From the NCBI GenBank assembly GCA_025351825.1, contig JANXVE010000072.1, forward strand, positions 1 through 40,410: a stretch of DNA of 40,410 nt, given 5' to 3'. Every line of letters starts with the position of its first letter. The stretch's first letter is position 1. Source of the DNA: Chamaesiphon sp. 341R_metabat_111 (GTDB lineage Bacteria > Cyanobacteriota > Cyanobacteriia > Cyanobacteriales > Chamaesiphonaceae). Positions 2,942 to 40,082 of the stretch are shown one piece after another. The notes under the pieces are model-generated. The model saw only the letters and a list, made by a program, of their open reading frames with translations, had not been told where the DNA came from and did no database searches. Made by a program: the position numbers and the translations under genes.

Positions 2942-3529
2942 ATGGTTCAAACACCAACTAAATCTATTTCGATCGAAGACTTTCTCCAACTGCCAGAAAC
3001 AAAGCCTGCCAGCGAATTTGTAGATGGTCAAATTATCCAGAAACAGATGCCCCAAGGAAAACACAGCACCATCCAGCGCGATCTAGTAAATGCAATCGAT
3101 TCAATCCTCAAGCAGGATAAAATTGCTCGTGCTTATCCTGAACTCCGCTGTACTTTTGGCGGACGTTCAACTGTGCCAGATGTTACTGTATTCGACTGGA
3201 ATCGAATTCCCCGTGAGGATAACGGGAAAGTTGCCAATGTATTTGCGCTTGCACCTGACTGGACGATTGAAATCCTCTCGCCCGAACAAAACCAAACAAA
3301 AGTAGTGCGAAATATCTTGCACTGCCTGAGTCACAGCACTCAAATGGGCTGGTTAATTGACCCAGAAGAAGAACTAGTATTTGTCTATCTTGCTCACGAT
3401 CCCGCAGATAAGTTAGAGCAACCCAGGATCTCAGTCTTTGAAGTCAAGGAAGATTTACTACCAGTACCTGAATTTGCCAAATCTTTTCAACTAAGTGTCG
3501 GTCAATTATTTGGCTGGTTAGAGGATTAA
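2942..3529 (+). CDS. Uma2 family putative endonuclease (DUF820)
   Basis: 195 residues. It belongs to the Uma2/DUF820 family, which is expanded in cyanobacteria and has a PD-(D/E)xK nuclease fold. Visible core elements are an early acidic residue in ASEFVDGQII, the PDVTVFDW strand, the IEILSPEQ strand, and NILHCLSHSTQMGWLID, the usual C-terminal part of the fold. The cellular role is unknown; many members are found near mobile elements. It starts 69 bp after the aspartase-like gene, with no obvious functional link to it. Confidence 0.85.
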   Translation: MVQTPTKSISIEDFLQLPETKPASEFVDGQIIQKQMPQGKHSTIQRDLVNAIDSILKQDKIARAYPELRCTFGGRSTVPDVTVFDWNRIPREDNGKVANVFALAPDWTIEILSPEQNQTKVVRNILHCLSHSTQMGWLIDPEEELVFVYLAHDPADKLEQPRISVFEVKEDLLPVPEFAKSFQLSVGQLFGWLED

Positions 3530-7706: not shown

Positions 7707-9233
<1,527 letters not shown>

Positions 9234-9330
9234 TTATTTACTGTTGTAAGTTTTCTATAAGTTATTAGTTGTTGGTTGTTAGTTCTCAGCAAATTGCTAT
9301 TCACTAAACCACTATCCACTAAACCACTAA

Positions 9331-9879
9331 TTAAGCAATACTCAGACCCAAACGGCGAATTTCAGCGCGTAAGCTGGAATCAATTACCTGCGAACCAACT
9401 TTGATGATGGTTCCACCCAGAATGTCTGAATCAATTTTGGTGACAATTTCCACGCCGTTGGCGTTGGTCATTGCTTTCACCTTTTCGGCTACCAGAGTCG
9501 TCTGAGCTTCAGTTAGAGCGATCGCACTAGTAACTTCAGCCAGCACAATTCCTTTGAGATCTCGCAGAGCTGCTTGATACCGCTGACATATCCCGCTCAA
9601 ATAACCAATTCGCTTACGATCGACTAAAATCATCAAGAAGTTGGACATCAGAGGATTGATTTTATCAGTCACAACCTTAGCCAAAATTGCTTTTTTGTCA
9701 GCATTTTTAACGATCGGATTCTCTAAAATCTGTGCCAATTCTGGTGAACTTTCGAGCAGTTCGATCAAATCTGCACAATTAGTGCCAAATTCATCGACCA
9801 GGTTTTGCGACTGAGCGAGGGACATTAATGCGTCTGTGTAAGGATTTAAAATTACACTACCAACTGCACTACCTTTCAT
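9331..9879 (-). CDS. atpD: F0F1 ATP synthase delta subunit
   Basis: 182 residues (atpH in E. coli naming). Delta sits on top of F1 and joins it to the peripheral stalk. The N-terminal six-helix region includes NPYTDALMSLAQSQN, and the C-terminus has the family pattern VEIVTKIDSDILGGTIIKVGSQVIDSSLR. Its ATG (9877-9879) immediately follows the stop of the b gene with no bases between. The ribosome binding site GGAGGT lies within the end of atpF, so translation is probably coupled. Confidence 0.95.
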   Translation of the reverse strand: MKGSAVGSVILNPYTDALMSLAQSQNLVDEFGTNCADLIELLESSPELAQILENPIVKNADKKAILAKVVTDKINPLMSNFLMILVDRKRIGYLSGICQRYQAALRDLKGIVLAEVTSAIALTEAQTTLVAEKVKAMTNANGVEIVTKIDSDILGGTIIKVGSQVIDSSLRAEIRRLGLSIA

Positions 9880-10404
9880 TTATTTACCTCCTACCAATGC
9901 GATACTGCGATCGACCAGCTCGGTTTGAGCAGATGCGGTCAGCAGGTCTTTGAGTTGAGCTTCAGCGCGTTCGATCGCCAGAGCTGTGACGCGGGCGCGG
10001 AGTTCGGCAATTGCTTTATCCTGCTCGCTATCGGTGCTTGCAGCAGCGAGTTGCTGCATCCGCTCGATATCGGCTGCGGCTTTAGCAGCGATTTCAGCTT
10101 TGGCATTTGCCGCACTGGTGGTTGCAGTTTGGCGAATGTTTGCAGCTTCGGCTTGAGCCTCGGCCAAGTTCTTTTTGGCTACTGTCAATGCTGATGCCGC
10201 CTGTTTTTGGCGATCTTCAGTATCTTTAATCGCGACTTCGATCGCTTCACGGCGTTCTGTGAGGATATTGTTCAAGAATTTGCCGCCAAAGACAAACAAA
10301 AATACTAGAACTAATACAAGGTTAACTAAGTTGGTTTCGATTAAATCTGGATTTAAACTGACACCACCTTCACCTGTTGTGGCGAGGAATAAGAGTCCTA
10401 TCAT
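9880..10404 (-). CDS. atpF: F0F1 ATP synthase b subunit
   Basis: 174 residues. A single membrane helix at about residues 25-45 (LVNLVLVLVFLFVFGG) is followed by the long charged helix of the peripheral stalk (ILTERREAIEVAIKDTEDRQKQ and an Ala/Gln/Glu-rich continuation). It pairs with b' to form the heterodimeric stalk typical of photosynthetic organisms. The short N-terminus MIGLLFLATTGEGG may be trimmed, as in other cyanobacterial b subunits. It abuts atpD directly. Confidence 0.95.
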   Translation of the reverse strand: MIGLLFLATTGEGGVSLNPDLIETNLVNLVLVLVFLFVFGGKFLNNILTERREAIEVAIKDTEDRQKQAASALTVAKKNLAEAQAEAANIRQTATTSAANAKAEIAAKAAADIERMQQLAAASTDSEQDKAIAELRARVTALAIERAEAQLKDLLTASAQTELVDRSIALVGGK

Positions 10405-28975: not shown

Positions 28976-30229
28976 ATGCAACAACACAAGATTAGAGTGG
29001 AATCATTGCCGCTGCTGTACCCTACCAAAGCTGCAATTCTGAACCAGGGGACGATTGAAATCGATTTGCAGTCTGCAACGCTACGCGATCGAACACCAGT
29101 CGAAGATCGCCACAATAGTAGAAATGTGTCAGGGTCTGGCGATCGAGTAGCGTCCAATTCTAGTCAGCCGAGAATGCCGGAAGTAGCAAAAAACTACATG
29201 GACACACACCGAATCATTCCACAAGATCCGCTTGCTAATTATCGTTTTGATACAAATCGGCTCAGTACAGGTAATTTCGATCTAGTCAATGTCCAATGGC
29301 AAGGCGCATTTAAGCTCGAAGAAGAAGCAATAGCAGATCGCTACACCATTTATATTGCCCTCTCAGGTTCATTAGACCAAAAGATTGGTCTAGATCGGTC
29401 ATATTGTTGTTCGCTCGATACAGCCACGATTATTAGTCCAGGTCAAAAATTGGAGAGTATCACTAGCGATACAGGGGAAGCATTATTGATTTCGATCGAT
29501 CTTAAGTCGATCGAATCCGCTGCTTGTAAGTTGTTTGGTCGATCGTTGAAGCACCCAGTCGTGTTTATTCCCAGCATCGATCTGACTCAGGAGTTGGGAC
29601 TGAGCTTGAAAAAGTTTATCCAATTTCTGTGGGAAGCAGCAGCACAAAGCAGTTTAGCGGATTTTTCCGCATTAGTATTGAGGCAGTTAGAAAAGGCTTT
29701 CTTGTCTTGTTTGGTGGAGGGGGTGCTGAGTAACTATTCCGAGGAGCTGCGATATCAACATGATGGTGCATTAGCCTGTCATGTTCGCAAAGCGCAAGCG
29801 TTCATCGATGCTCATCTTCAAGAAGATATCAATCTCGGGGATATCGCCGCAGCCACGGGAGTCTGTTCTCGGTTGCTCCAGAAGGCTTTTGCCCAGCATT
29901 GCGGCTGTTCGCCGATGCGGTTTGTCACTCATGCACGGTTACAGCAGATTCGACAGGTATTGGAAGCAGCAACCAGCGATCGCAAAATTGTCGATGTGAT
30001 GATGGATTATGGTTTTACTCAGGGTGGCAAGTTTGCGCGGGAGTACCAGCAGTTATTTGGCGAGAAACCATCAGAGACTTTGAAGCGAGCTAGTCAGCTC
30101 AACCGCCAGCATTCTCCACTGTGGCAATCGATCGATGATGCCCAATCCGATCGAGTCGTAGGTGGTGCTTGGTATCGTCAGATCCCCTTCTTTAAATATT
30201 CTAAAAACGAATTTTTTTATTTATACTAA
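28976..30229 (+). CDS. AraC-family regulator with a precursor-leader-like C-terminal tail
   Basis: 417 residues. Residues 1-70 are polar and unrecognised. About 75-250 form an AraC-type sensor domain with no clear ligand residues. About 268-371 form a complete AraC DNA-binding domain (FIDAHLQEDINLGDIAAATGVCSRLLQKAFAQHCG-type first helix-turn-helix, then VMMDYGFTQGGKFAREYQQLFGEKPSETLKR). The chain should end near 372. Instead there is a 45-residue tail whose part 382-397, LWQSIDDAQSDRVVGG, aligns without gaps to the leaders of the four following peptide genes (for example LWTELTETQTEAINGG). Twenty aromatic-rich residues follow the Gly-Gly. It is 86 bp upstream of the first peptide gene on the same strand and is the likely regulator of the locus. 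Confidence 0.88.
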   Translation: MQQHKIRVESLPLLYPTKAAILNQGTIEIDLQSATLRDRTPVEDRHNSRNVSGSGDRVASNSSQPRMPEVAKNYMDTHRIIPQDPLANYRFDTNRLSTGNFDLVNVQWQGAFKLEEEAIADRYTIYIALSGSLDQKIGLDRSYCCSLDTATIISPGQKLESITSDTGEALLISIDLKSIESAACKLFGRSLKHPVVFIPSIDLTQELGLSLKKFIQFLWEAAAQSSLADFSALVLRQLEKAFLSCLVEGVLSNYSEELRYQHDGALACHVRKAQAFIDAHLQEDINLGDIAAATGVCSRLLQKAFAQHCGCSPMRFVTHARLQQIRQVLEAATSDRKIVDVMMDYGFTQGGKFAREYQQLFGEKPSETLKRASQLNRQHSPLWQSIDDAQSDRVVGGAWYRQIPFFKYSKNEFFYLY

Positions 30230-30278
30230 GTCGCAAATCGAATATACACCATTTAATAAGTCTCATATATTGATTGTA

Positions 30279-30315: not shown

Positions 30316-30522
30316 ATGACTAACAATACATCTGTTAAATTCTGGAACGATCTAACTGAAGCTCAATCAGAATCGATCAACGGTGGCGTAGTAATCGGAA
30401 ATTTTGCGGCTTTCTCTAAATTAACTAGCCAAAATAATGGTGCAATTGTTGCATTTAGTGGCAACGCAGTTGGCATTTTCAATGCTGGCGGTGTCGTAGT
30501 CGCTCAAACTAACGTAGCTTAA
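30316..30522 (+). CDS. Double-glycine leader peptide precursor 1
   Basis: 68 residues, preceded by an AGGA ribosome binding site. Residues 1-24 are the leader, with FWNDLTEAQSESINGG at 9-24 ending in the Gly-Gly cut site for a C39 peptidase. The predicted 44-residue core is uncharged apart from one Lys and has no Cys. It is rich in Val, Ala, Gly and Asn: SKLTSQNNG, then SGNAVGIFNAGG, ending AQTNVA. Leader style and the neighbouring C39 transporter place it among cyanobacterial bacteriocin-like exported peptides. It is the most divergent of the three 68-residue paralogues. No modification enzyme is nearby, so it is probably exported unmodified. Its biological activity is unknown. Confidence 0.85.
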   Translation: MTNNTSVKFWNDLTEAQSESINGGVVIGNFAAFSKLTSQNNGAIVAFSGNAVGIFNAGGVVVAQTNVA

Positions 30523-30611
30523 CTAAAAGAGTCTAGCTACGAAATCTAGGTTGCTACATCTACAGCGTTAAATGCGATCGATGAATTTAGCACTTTAGAC
30601 TAAATATTGAT

Positions 30612-30657
30612 TTTCAAATATCTACCTGTAGATAGTAATCGAAGATTTCAAATATCT
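30612..30657. promoter_or_regulatory. Direct repeat TTTCAAATATCT upstream of peptide gene 2
   Basis: Two identical 12-mers lie at 30612-30623 and 30646-30657, 34 bp apart, the second ending 32 bp before the ATG of peptide 2. AraC-family proteins often bind direct repeats, so this is a candidate site, but it is not seen before the other peptide genes. Confidence 0.3.
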
Positions 30658-30689
30658 CAACAAAATATAAACTCTAGGAGCCAAGCGCA

Positions 30690-30896
30690 ATGAAATCTTA
30701 TAATTCTCAACATCTCTGGACTGAGCTAACTGAAACTCAAACAGAAGCTATCAATGGTGGTTTGATTGCCTTTAACATTGCGATCGCTTCTAAACTGACT
30801 TACCAAGAGAATGGTGCCCTCGTGATTGCGAGTGGCAATGCAATTGGTTTTGGCAATCAGGCTGGAGTAGCAATAGTTCAAACCAACTTAGCTTAA
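30690..30896 (+). CDS. Double-glycine leader peptide precursor 2
   Basis: 68 residues with a strong TAGGAG ribosome binding site. The leader (1-24) contains LWTELTETQTEAINGG. The 44-residue core begins LIAFNIAIASKLTYQENG and continues with ASGNAIGFGNQAGVAIVQTN, ending in LA. No cysteine is present and there is only one Lys and one Glu, so it is a neutral, Gly/Asn/Ala-rich hydrophobic peptide. It is highly similar to precursor 3, including the bases around the ribosome binding site (TAGGAGCCAAG), pointing to tandem duplication. The C39 transporter downstream would remove the leader after Gly24 during export. Confidence 0.87.
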   Translation: MKSYNSQHLWTELTETQTEAINGGLIAFNIAIASKLTYQENGALVIASGNAIGFGNQAGVAIVQTNLA

Positions 30897-31076
30897 TTAC
30901 AACTTGTCAGAGGATGTTTTGGAACTTGAAATTGCTAGATTTAGAGGCTTAGACTTCAATAGTCAATTGAGCGAATGAGCGATAATTTGATTATTAAATA
31001 ACTAGCTTTAGATTGCAGTTGAATGTTTCACGACATCCCCATTCATAACATCAATATAATTTAGGAGCCAAGTACA

Positions 31077-31283
31077 ATGAGATCTGATAATTCCCAAAAT
31101 CTCTGGATCGAACTAACCGAAACTCAAACAGAAACTATTAATGGTGGTGTAATTGCCTTTAATGCTGCATTCTTCTCCAAACTGACTTACCAAAATAATG
31201 GTGCCATTGTAATTGCTAGCGGCAATGCAATTGGTATTGGCAATCAGGCTGGGGTCGCAATCGTTCAAACTAACATAGCTTAA
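31077..31283 (+). CDS. Double-glycine leader peptide precursor 3
   Basis: 68 residues, starting exactly 387 bp after precursor 2 and with the same TAGGAGCCAAG ribosome binding context. The leader contains LWIELTETQTETINGG. The core begins VIAFNAAFFSKLTYQNNG and continues with ASGNAIGIGNQAGVAIVQTN, ending in IA. It differs from precursor 2 at few positions, mostly conservative ones. Like its paralogues it lacks Cys and has very few charges. It is probably secreted without modification by the adjacent PCAT/HlyD pair. Confidence 0.87.
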   Translation: MRSDNSQNLWIELTETQTETINGGVIAFNAAFFSKLTYQNNGAIVIASGNAIGIGNQAGVAIVQTNIA

Positions 31284-31452
31284 TTGCAACTTTCAAGAGG
31301 ATATTTTAAAATTTTAGATTGCTACAGCTAGAATGTTAAATTTTAACCAATAACAATGTCTGCGGACTGAAGCTTATTTATTAATTAGCTAGGATGCAGC
31401 AATCGATGGTTTTAAAATATCCTTTAAAACAATATAATTTTGGAATAAAATC

Positions 31453-31668
31453 ATGAGCATAAATCATCAACTCGAACTAAATAAACCTCATCAGGAATTA
31501 TGGATCGAATTAAACGATCGGCAATCAGGTGAAATTAATGGTGGTGGCACACAGATAAATACGAATGTAAACATCAATGTACTCACCAATATCGCAGTAC
31601 AAACAAATATCGCTACCATCATTGGTGCTAGTGGCTCGATCGATCAGTACAATTATTTCCGCAGGTAG
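31453..31668 (+). CDS. Double-glycine leader peptide precursor 4 (divergent core)
   Basis: 71 residues. The leader is longer at the N-terminus (1-31) but ends in the same 16-residue motif, LWIELNDRQSGEINGG. The 40-residue core is different: GTQINTNVNINVLTNIAVQT, then NIATIIGASGSI and an aromatic, basic end QYNYFRR. It is rich in Asn and Thr, has no Cys, and shares only the VQTNIA and ASG fragments with the other three. It may be a partner peptide in a two-component system, an immunity-like decoy, or a structural subunit; none of these is shown by the sequence. The start has a weak TTGGA site. Confidence 0.83.
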   Translation: MSINHQLELNKPHQELWIELNDRQSGEINGGGTQINTNVNINVLTNIAVQTNIATIIGASGSIDQYNYFRR

Positions 31669-31752: not shown

Positions 31753-31794
31753 GGCGATCCTTGATATTTTTAATAAAGCCGTGCGGTGAATTTT

Positions 31795-33936
31795 ATGAAA
31801 TATGCAATTGTCCGTCAACACAGCGAAGAAGACTGTGGGGCAGCTTGTCTGGCGACCATCGCCAAACATCATGGACGCACTTTTTCCATCAGTCGTGGAC
31901 GATCTGCCGTTGGGACAGGGACACGGGGTACGACTCTATTGGGATTGCGACGGGGCGCGGAAGCATTGGGATTTAATGCGCGTCCAGTTAAGGCGACACC
32001 CGAACTACTCGACAATATTCAGGCGGCTCCGCTCCCAGCGATCATTCACTGGCAAGGCAATCATTGGGTTGTATTATATGGTCGGCAGCGGAAAAAATAT
32101 ATCATCGGCGATCCAGGCAATGGCATTCGCTACATCACCCATCAGGAGCTAATTACAAATTGGCCGAATGGGGTTTTGCTATTGTTGGAACCCGATCCCG
32201 TTCGGTTTAACGAACAGCCAGAGGACAAAATTGGTGGGTTTGGGATGTTTTTCAAGCGGGTATTGCCGTATAAGGGGATTATCATCCAAGCGATCGCAAT
32301 TAATATCGTGGTAGGACTGTTGGCGTTGACGCTACCGATCGTCATGCAGATTCTCACCGATGATGTCTTGGTGCGCAGCGATCGTCAGTTATTGATGACG
32401 GTAGGCATCGGCGTAATTGCGCTCAATGTATTTCGGAGCGTGATTACCCTGATCCAATCAAATCTGATCGCTCACTTTGGACAGCGGCTGAAATTGGGAT
32501 TGAATCTCGATTATGGTTTCAAACTGTTACGGTTGCCGATGAGCTATTTTGATGCCCATCGAAGTGGGGAAGTAGTCAGTCGGCTCGGCGATATCCGCCA
32601 GCTTCATAATCTGATCTCCCAATTAGTGCTCGGCTTGCCCAGTCAGTTTTTTATTGCTGTTGTCTCCCTGGGCTTGATGCTGACTTATAGCCCTCAGCTC
32701 ACTCTCGCGGCACTTGCCGCTTTTATCACGATTATCATCATTAATCTGCTATTTTTTCCCAGCTTACAAAATAAAACCCGCCGCCTGATTACTGAAGGGG
32801 CTGAAAATCAGGGCTTTTTGATCGAAACATTTCGGGGGGCGATCGTCCTCAAGACTAGTCAAGCTACACCTCAAGCCTGGTCGGAGTATCAGCGCAATTT
32901 TGGTCGGCTGGCAAATCTGGAATGGGGCGCAATTCAACTGGAGATCTATACTAGTACAATTACCCAATCGATCGGTAGTATTACCTCGATCGGGCTATTG
33001 TGGTTGGGTAGCGAGCTGGTAATCGATCGCACTCTCAGCATTGGACAACTGATCGCTTTTACGGGGATGAGTGGTAATTTATTTGGATTTCTAAGTATGG
33101 TAGTTGGCTTAGTAGACCAATTTACCACTGCCCAAATCGTAGTAGAACGACTCGGTGAAGTCCTAGAGAGTCCAATAGAAGAGGGTTACGGCAAACCCAA
33201 ACCGAGAGTGAGAATTAGCGCAGCAAGGGATATTACTTGTAATAATCTCAATTTTCACCATACGGGCAGAGTTGCCCTCCTGAAAGATTTTAACCTGACT
33301 ATTCCTGGTGGGAGTGTGACTGCCCTAATTGGTGAATCGGGTTGTGGTAAAAGTACCCTCGCCAAACTAATTACCGGATTGTATCCGCTCCAATCGGGAA
33401 ATATCCGCTATGGCAAATATAGTCAGTCGGATATCTCCCTCGACTCATTGCGGCAACAAGTAGTCCTCGTCCCCCAAACGCCGCATTTCTGGAGTCGATC
33501 GATTGTCGAAAATTTTCAGTTTACCAATCCTGAAGTTACTTTTGAAGACACGGTGACGGCTTGTGAAATTGCCTGCGCGAATGAATTTATCACTGAATTA
33601 CCCGATAAATATCAGACGGTTTTAGGTGAATTTGGGGCGAATATTTCCGGTGGACAACTCCAGCGATTGGCAATTGCGCGGGCGATCGTCACCAATCCAC
33701 CAATCCTAATTTTGGATGAGTCTACAGGTGCCCTCGATCCGGCACTAGAAGCCGAAGTACTCGATCGGATTCTCGACTATCGTCAGGGGAAAATTACGAT
33801 TTTGATTACTCACCGCCCCGCTGTGATTAGGCGAGCCGATCTGATTATTTATCTCGATCGGGGTGAGTTAAAACTTACGGGTACACCAGTCGAATTGGAT
33901 CGAATTCCAGGTGAACATCTCAATTTTTTAAATTAG
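31795..33936 (+). CDS. C39 peptidase-containing ABC transporter (PCAT) for double-glycine peptides
   Basis: 713 residues from the ATG at 31795; a GTG at 31786 would add three residues. The N-terminal C39 peptidase starts KYAIVRQHSEEDCGAACLATI, with oxyanion Gln8, catalytic Cys14, His90 (GNHWVVLYG) and Asp106 (IIGDPGNG) all present. Six membrane helices span about 150-430. The ATPase has Walker A GESGCGKST near 513, signature ISGGQLQRLAIARA near 617, and Walker B ILILDEST. PCATs cut leaders after Gly-Gly and export the core. The gene follows the four precursors and precedes an HlyD adaptor, so its cargo is almost certainly those peptides. Confidence 0.96.
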   Translation: MKYAIVRQHSEEDCGAACLATIAKHHGRTFSISRGRSAVGTGTRGTTLLGLRRGAEALGFNARPVKATPELLDNIQAAPLPAIIHWQGNHWVVLYGRQRKKYIIGDPGNGIRYITHQELITNWPNGVLLLLEPDPVRFNEQPEDKIGGFGMFFKRVLPYKGIIIQAIAINIVVGLLALTLPIVMQILTDDVLVRSDRQLLMTVGIGVIALNVFRSVITLIQSNLIAHFGQRLKLGLNLDYGFKLLRLPMSYFDAHRSGEVVSRLGDIRQLHNLISQLVLGLPSQFFIAVVSLGLMLTYSPQLTLAALAAFITIIIINLLFFPSLQNKTRRLITEGAENQGFLIETFRGAIVLKTSQATPQAWSEYQRNFGRLANLEWGAIQLEIYTSTITQSIGSITSIGLLWLGSELVIDRTLSIGQLIAFTGMSGNLFGFLSMVVGLVDQFTTAQIVVERLGEVLESPIEEGYGKPKPRVRISAARDITCNNLNFHHTGRVALLKDFNLTIPGGSVTALIGESGCGKSTLAKLITGLYPLQSGNIRYGKYSQSDISLDSLRQQVVLVPQTPHFWSRSIVENFQFTNPEVTFEDTVTACEIACANEFITELPDKYQTVLGEFGANISGGQLQRLAIARAIVTNPPILILDESTGALDPALEAEVLDRILDYRQGKITILITHRPAVIRRADLIIYLDRGELKLTGTPVELDRIPGEHLNFLN

Positions 33937-34005: not shown

Positions 34006-35628
34006 ATGGATGATTCTAATTTTACATCGGGAGAAGTTCTGCCGATGAATGTTCATAAAAATGTTCGTCATCTAGTCCCGATCGAGCGAGAGCTGATGCC
34101 CGAACGATCCGATCCGATCGTTCATTTTCCCCAGGAAGCCGACTACGCGATCGTCGAGCCAATTACCCCAGCAGAATTTTTACCGCCAATCGGTCGCTGG
34201 TTATCGGTGGGTGGGGTGGTGATGGTGGCTAGTTTTGGTGCGGCGATCGCTCTAAGTACGGTGCTTAAATATAAAGTCACCGTTCAAGCTCCCGCCAGCA
34301 TTCGTCCGGTGGGGGAACTGCGAGTGGTACAATCGACGATCGAAGGCTCGGTACTGAATATTTCGGTCAAAGAAAATCAAACTGTCCAGAAGGGCGATCG
34401 GATCGCCACTGTCAAAGATTTGCGGCTCGAAAGTAAACTCCAAACCAAGCGCAATCAATTAATCGGCAGTATTCAGAAAGCTAAGTACCAAATTCTGGCA
34501 ATCGATGCTCAGATCGGTGCCAGCGATCGTCAGGGGATCGCCGAAATCGAGCAGGGCAATCGCTCGATCGCCGGAATCCAAGCCGAACTCAGTCGCGCCG
34601 AACGAGATTATCGCGACAAGCGGATCGTCAGCCAAGCAGAAGTCGCTGAAGCTGAAGCCAACTGGAGAACTGCCCAGAAAGAACAGCAAGTCGCCGAAGT
34701 GGATCTACAAGTCGCTGCTGCTAACCTCAAATCACTCCAAGCGGGACACAAATCTGCGATGGCGAGATCGGAACGCTATCAGAGTGTCGCTACAGATGGA
34801 GCAATTTCTACCAACCAGCTCGAAGAAGCCCAATTAGCTGCCGAACAACAGGCGCAATCGATCGCCGCCCACCAAGCGACGATCCTCAAGCAAAAACAGA
34901 TCGTCGCCCGCGTCGCCGAAACAGTCGGGGCTGCTCAAGCCAGAGTCCGTCGCACCCAAGCCGCCCTCAATCCCAGTCGCGCCGAATCAGCCGCGATCGT
35001 CCAAAAGATCGCCCGCGAACAAGCAATCGGTAAAGCTGCGATCGCCAGACTCCAGCAAGAGCGGCAGAAACTGCTCCAGCAGCGATTGGAAATCATCAAC
35101 CAGATCGCCACTAGCGATCGCGAGATCGCCCAAATCGCCACCGAACTCCAGCCCACCCAAATCCTTGCGCCAGTATCGGGGACAATTCAAACACTAAATC
35201 TCCGCAATCCGGCTCAGGTGCTCCAACCTGGCGATCGACTCGCCCAGATTGTGCCGACGGGTACACCGCTAAATATCAAAGCCTACGTCGCCATCTCCGA
35301 TGTCAGCAATATTAAAGTCGGGCAACTAGTTCAGATGCGGGTATCAGCTTGTCCCTATACTGACTATGGGGTAGGATTGGGCAGAGTAATTGAGATATCT
35401 GCCGATGCCAAAGCGATCGAGCAGAATGGGGGCAAAAATGCTGCTCAACAGCCCCAAGCACCAACCAGCACGTATGAGGTGACGATCGAGCCAGACACTC
35501 TCAAGCTGACTCGCGGTAGTAGTAAGTGTCAGATTCGATCGGGAATGGATGGTCGCGCCGACATTATTTCTAAGGAAGAAACCGTTTTCCAATTTCTGCT
35601 CAAAAAAGCCCGATTGGACAGCATCTAG
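34006..35628 (+). CDS. HlyD-family secretion adaptor (membrane fusion protein)
   Basis: 540 residues. A cytoplasmic N-terminus of about 64 residues is followed by one membrane helix (WLSVGGVVMVASFGAAIALSTVL, 65-87) and a biotinyl-lipoyl half motif (GSVLNISVKENQTVQKGDRIATV). A very long Ala/Gln/Glu/Arg-rich coiled-coil hairpin covers about 145-380. The second lipoyl half is APVSGTIQTLNLRNPAQVLQPGDRLAQIVPTG, followed by the beta-barrel region. Such adaptors join an inner-membrane ABC exporter to a TolC-like outer-membrane channel. It lies 69 bp after the PCAT and is clearly part of the same export unit. No TolC gene is in the window. Confidence 0.93.
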   Translation: MDDSNFTSGEVLPMNVHKNVRHLVPIERELMPERSDPIVHFPQEADYAIVEPITPAEFLPPIGRWLSVGGVVMVASFGAAIALSTVLKYKVTVQAPASIRPVGELRVVQSTIEGSVLNISVKENQTVQKGDRIATVKDLRLESKLQTKRNQLIGSIQKAKYQILAIDAQIGASDRQGIAEIEQGNRSIAGIQAELSRAERDYRDKRIVSQAEVAEAEANWRTAQKEQQVAEVDLQVAAANLKSLQAGHKSAMARSERYQSVATDGAISTNQLEEAQLAAEQQAQSIAAHQATILKQKQIVARVAETVGAAQARVRRTQAALNPSRAESAAIVQKIAREQAIGKAAIARLQQERQKLLQQRLEIINQIATSDREIAQIATELQPTQILAPVSGTIQTLNLRNPAQVLQPGDRLAQIVPTGTPLNIKAYVAISDVSNIKVGQLVQMRVSACPYTDYGVGLGRVIEISADAKAIEQNGGKNAAQQPQAPTSTYEVTIEPDTLKLTRGSSKCQIRSGMDGRADIISKEETVFQFLLKKARLDSI

Positions 35629-37563: not shown

Positions 37564-37729
37564 GCTACCGTGTATACACAAGTTTTATTTGCTTCGTTTC
37601 TAGGTTAATTGCCCCCTAAATCCCCCAATTCTGGGGGACTTTCCAGAGATTGGCTCCCCCAGAATTGGGGGCTGGGGGGCGAATCGATCGAGTATTCACC
37701 AGATTCTCGACTTGTGTATACACGGTAGC
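37564..37729. mobile_element. Inverted-repeat element that forms the end of the TPR-CHAT gene
   Basis: Perfect 20-bp ends, GCTACCGTGTATACACAAGT (37564-37583) and its complement (37710-37729), enclose a second stem of TCCCCCAATTCTGGGGG type. The length is 166 bp. The element supplies the last 40 codons and the stop of the minus-strand CHAT gene. No clear target-site duplication is seen, though C-rich repeat remnants flank both sides (37525-37560 and 37730-37745). Confidence 0.75.
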
Positions 37730-40082
37730 CTCCGAGGAGGGGATTTTCACTGGCTTCGGTTTGGGTGGGATTTATAGGGAGGGGGACGAAGGGGATTTGG
37801 TGGAGGAGTAAATGCGGTACCAAAACTAGTTCTTGGATGTCGTGGAGGTGATTGGCAATAAGCTGGGAGAGTTGCAGCCGATCGGCGATCTCTGCGAGTA
37901 CTAATGGCATTCGATCGCGCCATGCAGAATTATCTTTTTGTCTGTAAGGGTTGAGCCAGTTTTCGATTAGCCATTGCTGAAATTCATTCCAGCCTTGTCC
38001 GGTGCAGGTAAATAGCTCAGGCTCTTGGTTTTGTTTGAGGATGAAGATGTGGGTATGGTTGTTGGTGCTGTAACAGGTCAAAATCGCGGTGTGGGCGTTG
38101 GTAATTAGCTTTTCAATTTCTTTGTGAGAAATGGGCGAGATCGCAATCTGTCCGGCAAGTACGGGGTCGTGGGTGCGGATTTTGTTGTAGAGAATTTGTT
38201 TACGATCGGCTAGCGAACTGATTTTCTCATTATCTGCTCGTAAGGCTTGGCTATCTCGGCTAGTTTTGGCAACGGACATGGCTCGATCGCCATCTTCTCG
38301 GAGGTTGTCGATGTCCTCGTTGAGCTGTTGATATTCGGTCAAATAAGCTTGAATCTCATCGGGGACTTGAGCATTACCGTACAAATCTTTGCTAGCCATT
38401 AGTTCTACGAGTTGACGGCTACGAACGCGCTCGGTGTATTCGATCGCTCTTCGATAGTCTTTCAGATTAACGGCGCACTGAATGGCGTTTTCATAAACGC
38501 TGAGAGCTTCTTGTAAGACCCGCTGGCGTTCGGTGTCATCTACCGACCAACTGCGGGAGGTTTCGGTGGCTTGCATGGCGATTTCATAGGCATCGATCGC
38601 GAGTTGCCATTTGCTTTGCTGTAGGTAAGTACCACCTAGATTTCGAGTTGATCTGAAACAATCAATCGGCAATGCTTGATGGGCAAAAATCTCCAGTGAT
38701 AGTTTGTGACCCATGATTGCTAGTTCGAGATTCTCAGATTTATTTCCTTTAATCCTCTCTTGGTAGGTGTTAGCAAGGTTATTCTGGGTCGCTGCCCAGT
38801 CAATAGGAAAATTCTGCTTGGTTCTAATCTCCAGTGATAGTTTATGACCCACGATCGCTAGTTCGAGATTCTCAGATTTATTTCCTTTAATCCTCTCTTG
38901 GTATGCAGTCGCAATGTTATGCTGTATCCTTGCCCATTCAATCGGGAATTTCTCGCGAGTATATATTTTAAGTGATAGTTTATGACCCACGATCGCTAGT
39001 TCGATATTCTCAGATTTATTTCCTTTAATCCTCTCTTGGTATGCACTAGCAAGACTATCTTGAGTCCATGCCCACTCGACAGGAAAATCATCGATCGTAA
39101 AAATCTCCAGTGATAGTTTATGACCCACGATTGCTAGTTCGAGATTCTCAGATTGGTTTCCTCTAATCTTCTCTGTATATGAACTTGCAAGATCATGCTG
39201 AGTCATTGCCCAGTCAAAAGGAAAATTCTGCTTGGTTCTAATCTCCAGAGCTAATTTATAACACGCAATTGCCAGTTCGAGATTCTCAGATCTATCTCCT
39301 CTAATCCTATAACTGTAAGCAGTCGCAAGATTGTGCTGAGTCCTCGCCCAGTCAACGGGAAATTTTTCGCGAGTATATATTTCCAGCACAGCTTCAAAAC
39401 CCACAATCGCCAGTTCGAGATTCTTCGCGCGATCTCCTCTAATGCGTTTTAAGTAGGAATTGGCAAGATTATTCTGATTCGTAACCCACTCGGCAGAAAA
39501 ATTATTGATGGTGTAAATCTTCTGTGCTGATTTATAACTAGAAATCGCCAGTTCTATATTTTCAGCTTTATCTCCTCTAATTCTTTCTGAGTAACCATTG
39601 GCAAGACTACCTTGAATGAAAGCCCATGTTTCTGGATATTCTGTAACTGTAAATATTACTAGAATTACCTCATAGCAAGCAATAAATAAATCAATATTCA
39701 CAGCATTATTTCCCAGTGGAAATTCTTGAATCAGACTTCCAAATCTAAGAATGTTTGCGGCAGTCATTATTTGTGAAAATTCCGATATTTTCTCACTTGC
39801 CCAACCCTTCATGTCATCGATTATCTTACCTATTGGAGATTGCTGAATTAGAATGCCAAAAGCACTTATATCCTCTGCAATGGACTTTGGATTATCTCGG
39901 ATTCCTGAAAATTCAGCACTCGCTAGACCTCTCAATACATCAATCATTCGAGCATCTAGAAATGCTAAGTTTTGCTGTAGAAGTGGATAAATGACATCAG
40001 GATTCCCCTTACTCTCATCGATTGACTGTAGTACTCTCTTCAAAAACTCTAGTTGTTTCCCTGAATCCTGTATGTCCGTCAT
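37605..40082 (-). CDS. TPR-CHAT domain protein with disrupted C-terminus
   Basis: 825 residues. The N-terminal helical region (FLKRVLQSIDESKGNPDVIYPLLQQNL) is common in cyanobacterial CHAT proteins. Seven TPR-like repeats of exactly 46 residues occupy 145-466 (pattern FPxxWAxTQxNLAxxYxxRIxGxxxENLELAI). Next come an eighth degenerate repeat, a coiled region, and the start of a caspase-like CHAT domain from about 640 (AILTCYSTNNHTHIFIL, DIQELVLVPHLLLHQIPFVPLP). CHAT proteases cut partner proteins, often in stress or immune signalling. Here the chain passes into an inverted-repeat element at about residue 786, and the part that should hold the catalytic His and Cys is absent. The product is probably not a working protease. 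Confidence 0.85.
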   Translation of the reverse strand: MTDIQDSGKQLEFLKRVLQSIDESKGNPDVIYPLLQQNLAFLDARMIDVLRGLASAEFSGIRDNPKSIAEDISAFGILIQQSPIGKIIDDMKGWASEKISEFSQIMTAANILRFGSLIQEFPLGNNAVNIDLFIACYEVILVIFTVTEYPETWAFIQGSLANGYSERIRGDKAENIELAISSYKSAQKIYTINNFSAEWVTNQNNLANSYLKRIRGDRAKNLELAIVGFEAVLEIYTREKFPVDWARTQHNLATAYSYRIRGDRSENLELAIACYKLALEIRTKQNFPFDWAMTQHDLASSYTEKIRGNQSENLELAIVGHKLSLEIFTIDDFPVEWAWTQDSLASAYQERIKGNKSENIELAIVGHKLSLKIYTREKFPIEWARIQHNIATAYQERIKGNKSENLELAIVGHKLSLEIRTKQNFPIDWAATQNNLANTYQERIKGNKSENLELAIMGHKLSLEIFAHQALPIDCFRSTRNLGGTYLQQSKWQLAIDAYEIAMQATETSRSWSVDDTERQRVLQEALSVYENAIQCAVNLKDYRRAIEYTERVRSRQLVELMASKDLYGNAQVPDEIQAYLTEYQQLNEDIDNLREDGDRAMSVAKTSRDSQALRADNEKISSLADRKQILYNKIRTHDPVLAGQIAISPISHKEIEKLITNAHTAILTCYSTNNHTHIFILKQNQEPELFTCTGQGWNEFQQWLIENWLNPYRQKDNSAWRDRMPLVLAEIADRLQLSQLIANHLHDIQELVLVPHLLLHQIPFVPLPINPTQTEASENPLLGGYRVYTSRESGEYSIDSPPSPQFWGSQSLESPPELGDLGGN
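38685..39650. repeat. Seven tandem 138-bp repeats inside the TPR-CHAT gene
   Basis: The repeats encode the seven 46-residue TPR-like units. DNA identity is highest among the three units nearest the C-terminal side (38685-39098), where TTCTCAGATTTATTTCCTTT recurs at intervals of exactly 138 bp. This indicates recent unit duplication or gene conversion. Confidence 0.88.

Follow-up and report, generated by a model that had tools for sequence, protein, structure and literature searches.

The matching of exported-peptide production to export capacity is known mostly from two-component and peptide-pheromone circuits. Transcription regulators of the AraC/XylS family usually, though not strictly, end at or just past their DNA-binding domain. 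If the reading developed below is true, a regulator bearing the recognition signal of the exporter itself would connect exporter occupancy directly to gene expression through a single protein, and both in vitro testing and engineering of that link would be easy.

The leaders handled by C39-peptidase ABC exporters (PCATs), as presented in the accessible portions of the reports on PCAT1/CtA (PMC6959990) and LahT150 (PMC6363468), share with the regulator tail described here hydrophobic residues at -12 and -4, a Gly-Gly, a flexible segment able to form a short helix on the C39 domain, and divergent sequence behind it. Those leaders are N-terminal on small precursors, whereas the tail is C-terminal on a 400-residue regulator (275-462 aa in the proteins that carry it), with Ser at -7 and a Trp-Asp-Asp signature. 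Another parallel is MalT/MalK, described in the available part of PMC10427625, in which an idle ABC transporter keeps a transcription regulator at the membrane, much like the mechanism we propose. MalT differs in belonging outside the AraC family and in its partner, an importer whose ATPase subunit binds the NBD and sensor domains of MalT and leaves it uncleaved (PMC10427625, same part).

Two cyanobacterial systems also come close. The model for HetC of Nostoc, according to the accessible text of PMC10986499, is that the N-terminal part of a substrate cut by a C39 exporter could stay inside the cell and interact with a transcription regulator. HetC has no known substrate and is of the long type with a cNMP domain, whereas in our case the regulator would itself be the candidate substrate. 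HetP-like proteins encoded near cyanobacterial bacteriocin clusters are likewise of a regulatory type with a conserved Gly-Gly motif, but in the available portion of PMC3140520 they are short, are not DNA-binding AraC proteins, and carry the motif KIXDLXYLEX10GG, connected by the authors with an M16 peptidase. As far as the accessible parts of two further papers go, the AraC genes in PMC3610870 concern iron uptake, and the Chamaesiphon minutus cluster in PMC3951391 is a LanM lantibiotic cluster. Within the full-text literature covered, which leaves out most subscription journals, we came across no report of a transcription factor carrying a double-glycine leader at its C-terminus; this does not prove absence.

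Gene order and regulator architecture

The window, meaning the whole 40,410-nucleotide stretch of DNA that was analysed, is contig C115 of the 4.06 Mb draft genome of Chamaesiphon sp. 341R_metabat_111 (G000). On its plus strand an AraC-family regulator gene (28976..30229) is followed by four small double-glycine precursors (30316..30522, 30690..30896, 31077..31283 and 31453..31668), a C39-peptidase ABC exporter (31786..33936), and an HlyD-type membrane fusion protein recognized by profile match (34006..35628). The C39 domain of the exporter (31798-32196) keeps the catalytic Cys (Cys14 when numbered from the ATG at 31795), His and Asp, and it aligns with PDB chains of PCAT1, ComA and LahT (best E 4.9e-22, 1.3e-19 and 1.7e-12, respectively); the exporter also has the ABC membrane and ATPase domains.

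Precursors 1 and 4 (leaders FWNDLTEAQSESINGG and LWIELNDRQSGEINGG) gave no match to the CTB family of bacteriocins (NF038167). Precursors 2 and 3 match this family weakly, at 14.3 and 21.5 bits (E 2e-4 for precursor 3), below the curated cut-off of 32, and precursor 2 has a further weak, sub-cut-off match to the cerein 7B family. The first three precursors are tandem copies (30341-31346), with a 182-base unit that is 66-72% identical among them and a 293-base unit that is 80% identical between precursors 2 and 3.

The regulator has 417 residues. An AraC-type N-terminal sensor domain is indicated by AraC_binding_2 at residues 71-246 (56.2 bits against a Pfam cut-off of 27), a region in which the AlphaFold model places strands at 78-175. 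The two-helix-turn-helix AraC DNA-binding domain is matched by HTH_18 (59.5 bits, cut-off 33.6; residues 290-371, 29843..30088) and HTH_AraC (35.8 bits, cut-off 26.6). Past the HTH_18 match there are 46 more residues, and the leader-like segment that the earlier note placed beyond the normal AraC end is indeed there, as residues 382-397, LWQSIDDAQSDRVVGG (30119..30166). The span first reported, 30104-30226, takes in a linker, this tail, and the 20 residues after the Gly-Gly (residues 398-417, 30167..30226), which are divergent among relatives. In an AlphaFold2 model computed from a shallow alignment of 11 sequences (mean pLDDT 69.9, pTM 0.47), residues 379-417 have pLDDT below 50, and for this reason we read the tail as flexible and predicted to be disordered.

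Conservation and distribution of the leader-like tail

A long orthologue of the regulator occurs in seven of the nine genomes of the genus, with only general AraC matches in G006 and G007, and the tail is retained in six of these seven. It reads LWQSIDDAQSDRVVGG in both G000 and G001, LWQQLDDDRSERVTGG in G002, LWHQIDDAHSEQIVGG in G005, MWQEIDDPLSARVAGG in G003 and NWQNIDDTQSERVAGG in G004; the evidence on the tail comes from these six copies in one genus, several of them in incomplete draft genomes. Trp at -15, Asp at -11 and -10, Ser at -7 and Gly at -2 and -1 are invariant, -12 is Ile or Leu, -4 is Val or Ile, and the remaining eight of 16 positions vary. The tail has its own signature, which is in effect Trp, then [IL], then DDxxSxx[VI]xGG.

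The four downstream leaders are as the earlier note quoted them, and Trp (-15), Gln (-8) and the Gly-Gly are common to them and the window's tail. Extended to the six regulators, the conservation it had claimed for these residues applies to the Trp and the Gly-Gly and fails for Gln (Q, Q, R, H, L, Q). Variation at -8 fits the tolerance reported for this leader position in the accessible parts of the published C39-leader structure work, where contacts lie at -12, -7, -4 and the Gly-Gly, the last in a narrow cleft (PMC6363468, PMC6959990). The tail keeps every one of these contact positions (-12, -7, -4, -2 and -1), a point in favour of the earlier note's interpretation. All five fall within the eight kept of 16 (p 0.013, with the kept set defined post hoc, and the contacts taken from the same accessible parts). 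The pattern expected of PCAT substrates, a Gly-Gly with hydrophobic residues at -4 (V/I) and -12 (I/L), is present in six of six tails. At -7 all six have Ser, and Ser or Thr is likewise found there in the four precursors of the window; the substrates of LahT and PCAT1 have Leu, unlike the tail, in the sections available (PMC6363468, PMC6959990).

We scored the tails against a general leader profile made from 38 leaders at exporter loci outside the genus (4 of 59 automatically picked leaders were dropped by eye as non-precursors, both here and in the core comparison given below). The six tails reach 2.7 to 10.1 bits, compared with 18.4 to 25.5 for the four true leaders of the window. The window's tail scores 4.1 bits, a value attained by 23 of 195,653 distinct 18-mers from 544 ORFs of at least 200 aa, regulator tails included, and matched or exceeded by 476 of 100,000 shuffles of its 16 non-GG residues; the top scorer among all the 18-mers is the tail of G002. 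Taken singly, a tail is a suggestive, modest match to a leader and not a compelling one, and the case for the tail therefore rests on its conservation, on constraint, and on its absence outside the genus.

Constraint was measured on three pairs with non-overlapping paths on the tree (G000/G001, G002/G004 and G005/G003). Pooled over these, 18.8 of 34.4 synonymous and 19.2 of 109.6 nonsynonymous tail sites have changed (Fisher p 4.5e-5), so that synonymous sites changed about three times as often; G000 and G001 differ by six synonymous and zero nonsynonymous changes. An alternative pairing gives p 2e-6, but its tree paths overlap. The same test detects no significant constraint in the stretch after the Gly-Gly (p 0.21, 0.10 and 0.70 in the three pairs). 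Judged by these substitution counts, the tail is under purifying selection up to the Gly-Gly. The stretches behind it are 20, 20, 67, 31, 42 and 27 residues long in the six tailed regulators, and they do not align convincingly except for G000 with G001.

Whether such tails always sit beside C39 transporters was a question raised at the outset, and the association holds in part. In four genomes (G000, G001, G002 and G003), precursors and an intact C39 exporter gene lie downstream of the tailed regulator. In G005 the 11,098-base contig of the regulator has no C39 match, and four C39 matches lie elsewhere in the genome. In G004 the regulator (L029, contig C18, 10085-10912) has its DNA-binding domain deleted and its tail retained, and it has neighbouring transporters with no C39 match on that contig. 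The state of the G004 locus may reflect decay or an assembly error, and we gave it zero weight for function.

The earlier note held that orthologues without the tail would count against its proposal, and one such copy exists, set against the six of seven genomes that keep the tail. G008 has two regulator loci, of which one (contig C151) ends at the contig edge before the tail would begin. The other (contig C175, L028 6921-8111), near a contig end, has no tail and terminates in LKKSSQ; its GExPS motif, elsewhere conserved, is altered, and this copy is possibly decaying. On the tree it falls within the tailed group, next to G004 (weakly supported, 0.31), and the tail loss thus looks derived. A further expectation, that the tail would track the local precursor leaders, was not borne out. 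Trp at -15 is present in both the leaders and the tail of G000 and G001, but the tails of G002 and G003 keep it where the three precursor leaders found at each locus lack it, and for these two genomes we reject the idea.

Beyond the genus, all 45 distinct AraC ORFs in the fetched loci have at most 14 residues past the domain profile and no such tail, which rules it out as a general AraC feature. Nor are AraC genes usual partners of such exporters: none of 40 exporter loci of other cyanobacteria, chosen from a longer list of matches and in some cases short at contig ends, had an AraC ORF. With a profile of domain plus tail, and at most 10 candidates scored per genome, 79 of 388 genomes of the class gave a regulator-domain match at 1e-12. 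Among these 388, a draw that did not include other members of the genus, the match runs through the tail without a stop only in the window's genome. The furthest-running other matches, in G116 and G132, contain a stop, and the AraC ORFs there end 4 to 7 residues past the domain. Given that the class genomes, the 45 AraC ORFs and the 40 exporter loci yielded no tailed regulator outside the genus, it is, in this sample, peculiar to one genus of freshwater cyanobacteria.

A proposed link between regulator and exporter

We favour, with a probability of roughly 0.55, the reading that the tail is a selected docking signal for the C39 domain, and probably a cleavage signal, that couples the regulator to the exporter. 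What follows on binding, cleavage, target genes and the direction of feedback is inferred. The AraC-family regulator would presumably control the cluster of precursors and exporter. Its flexible tail would place the Ile or Leu at -12, the Ser at -7 and the Val or Ile at -4 along the C39 groove, with the Gly-Gly in the narrow active-site cleft, and the 20-67 residues after the Gly-Gly would trail behind and be dispensable. While idle, the exporter would retain the regulator or trim it. Plentiful precursors, which have better leaders, would displace it, and since their leaders would outcompete the tail, release of the regulator would follow precursor supply. Exporter occupancy could in this way set the amount or the place of active regulator. 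Several observations weigh against this reading: the low profile scores of the tails, the Ser at -7, the tails' independence of the local leader type, the G005 contig lacking a C39 gene, the tail-less G008 copy, and the tail persisting in G004 with neither a DNA-binding domain in the regulator nor a C39 match on that contig.

Docking alone could suffice to keep the regulator at the membrane, in the manner of MalK and MalT as the available part of PMC10427625 describes them. The conservation of the Gly-Gly, together with the fact that none of the six regulators has fewer than 20 residues behind it, hints at cutting (the shuffle-probability product over five extensions is 0.0018 for at least 20 codons, a threshold chosen afterwards). 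We also put forward, tentatively and as a possibility well short of even odds, that the regulator is a substrate of the exporter: the C39 domain would cut after the Gly-Gly, the C-terminal piece would pass into the channel, and the trimmed regulator would be released or altered, such that an export event is read out as expression.

Other explanations for the tail

The tail could be conserved for some other reason, such as contact with RNA polymerase, dimerisation of the regulator, or another protease or partner, its likeness to leaders being convergent. That the tails score well below true leaders speaks for this, as do the tail kept in G005 with no exporter nearby and the Trp and Asp-Asp, which are stronger in the G002 and G003 tails than in the local leaders. 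However, the constraint spans the Gly-Gly and the C39-contact positions and becomes undetectable right after them, the tail belongs to a regulator in a C39 cluster and to 0/45 other AraC ORFs, and the region is predicted to be disordered, all of which makes this explanation unlikely in our view.

We are more doubtful about a dual role for the 3' end of the regulator gene, in which an internal start would make it a precursor gene as well and its free peptide would be exported like the other precursors, or about a full-length regulator-precursor fusion that has its C-terminal piece exported. A start at the TTG codon of Leu369 (30080..30082) would yield, in the window, a precursor of 49 residues, comprising a leader of 29 and a core of 20 (27-67 core residues in G002 to G005). 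Every one of the six tailed regulators has TTG here, whereas the G008 copy without a tail has CTA, all six extensions after the Gly-Gly have at least 20 codons, and the cores of real precursors diverge as well. The invariant TTG is weak evidence, however, because a single codon is used throughout in two of 20 invariant Leu columns and in 34 of 120 invariant columns overall, and by eye no well-placed Shine-Dalgarno sequence was found at the codons inspected. The pieces after the Gly-Gly are also mostly poor in Gly compared with 55 precursor cores, none of which is as low as G000 and G001, three as low as G002 and five as low as G003 (12 for G005 and 16 for G004), and the piece as a bacteriocin core accordingly finds little support.

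A further point against a precursor role for this piece is that in G000 and G001 it overlaps a DNA element that occurs outside the regulator in G004. The element is 55 bases long (30194..30248, plus strand, over the last regulator codons), and its two G004 copies (L029; 78-80% identity) lie outside the regulator gene, the first preceding a precursor and the second a transporter gene. We regard it as a candidate operator. Because the stretch after the Gly-Gly overlaps it, part of the likeness between G000 and G001 in that stretch may be at the DNA level.

A precursor leader that became fused to the regulator gene long ago and is functionless today was the alternative that the earlier note itself offered. 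It would account for a likeness confined to the leader, for the copy that has lost its tail (G008, contig C175), and for a tail persisting at the G004 locus despite its decay. The purifying selection seen in the tail (p 4.5e-5) disfavours it, and at E 0.01 or better the tail's DNA resembles none of the precursors in the window, from which it follows that any leader fusion would predate the divergence of these species; we consider a functionless relic very unlikely. Meaningless chance likeness, for which one could cite the 23 18-mers that reach the score of the window's tail, can practically be dismissed given six genomes with the tail in the identical place, with identical positions kept and under selection.

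Two further observations concern the same genome. On contig C19 of G000 (L060), the features at 2958-3089 and 8161-10377 comprise a further C39 exporter of this type and, roughly 5 kb from it, a short AraC-like remnant. Within the window, the minus strand at 37605-40082 carries a long, repeat-rich ORF whose terminal residues, inspected by eye only, resemble a translated repeat; it is perhaps a truncated protein.
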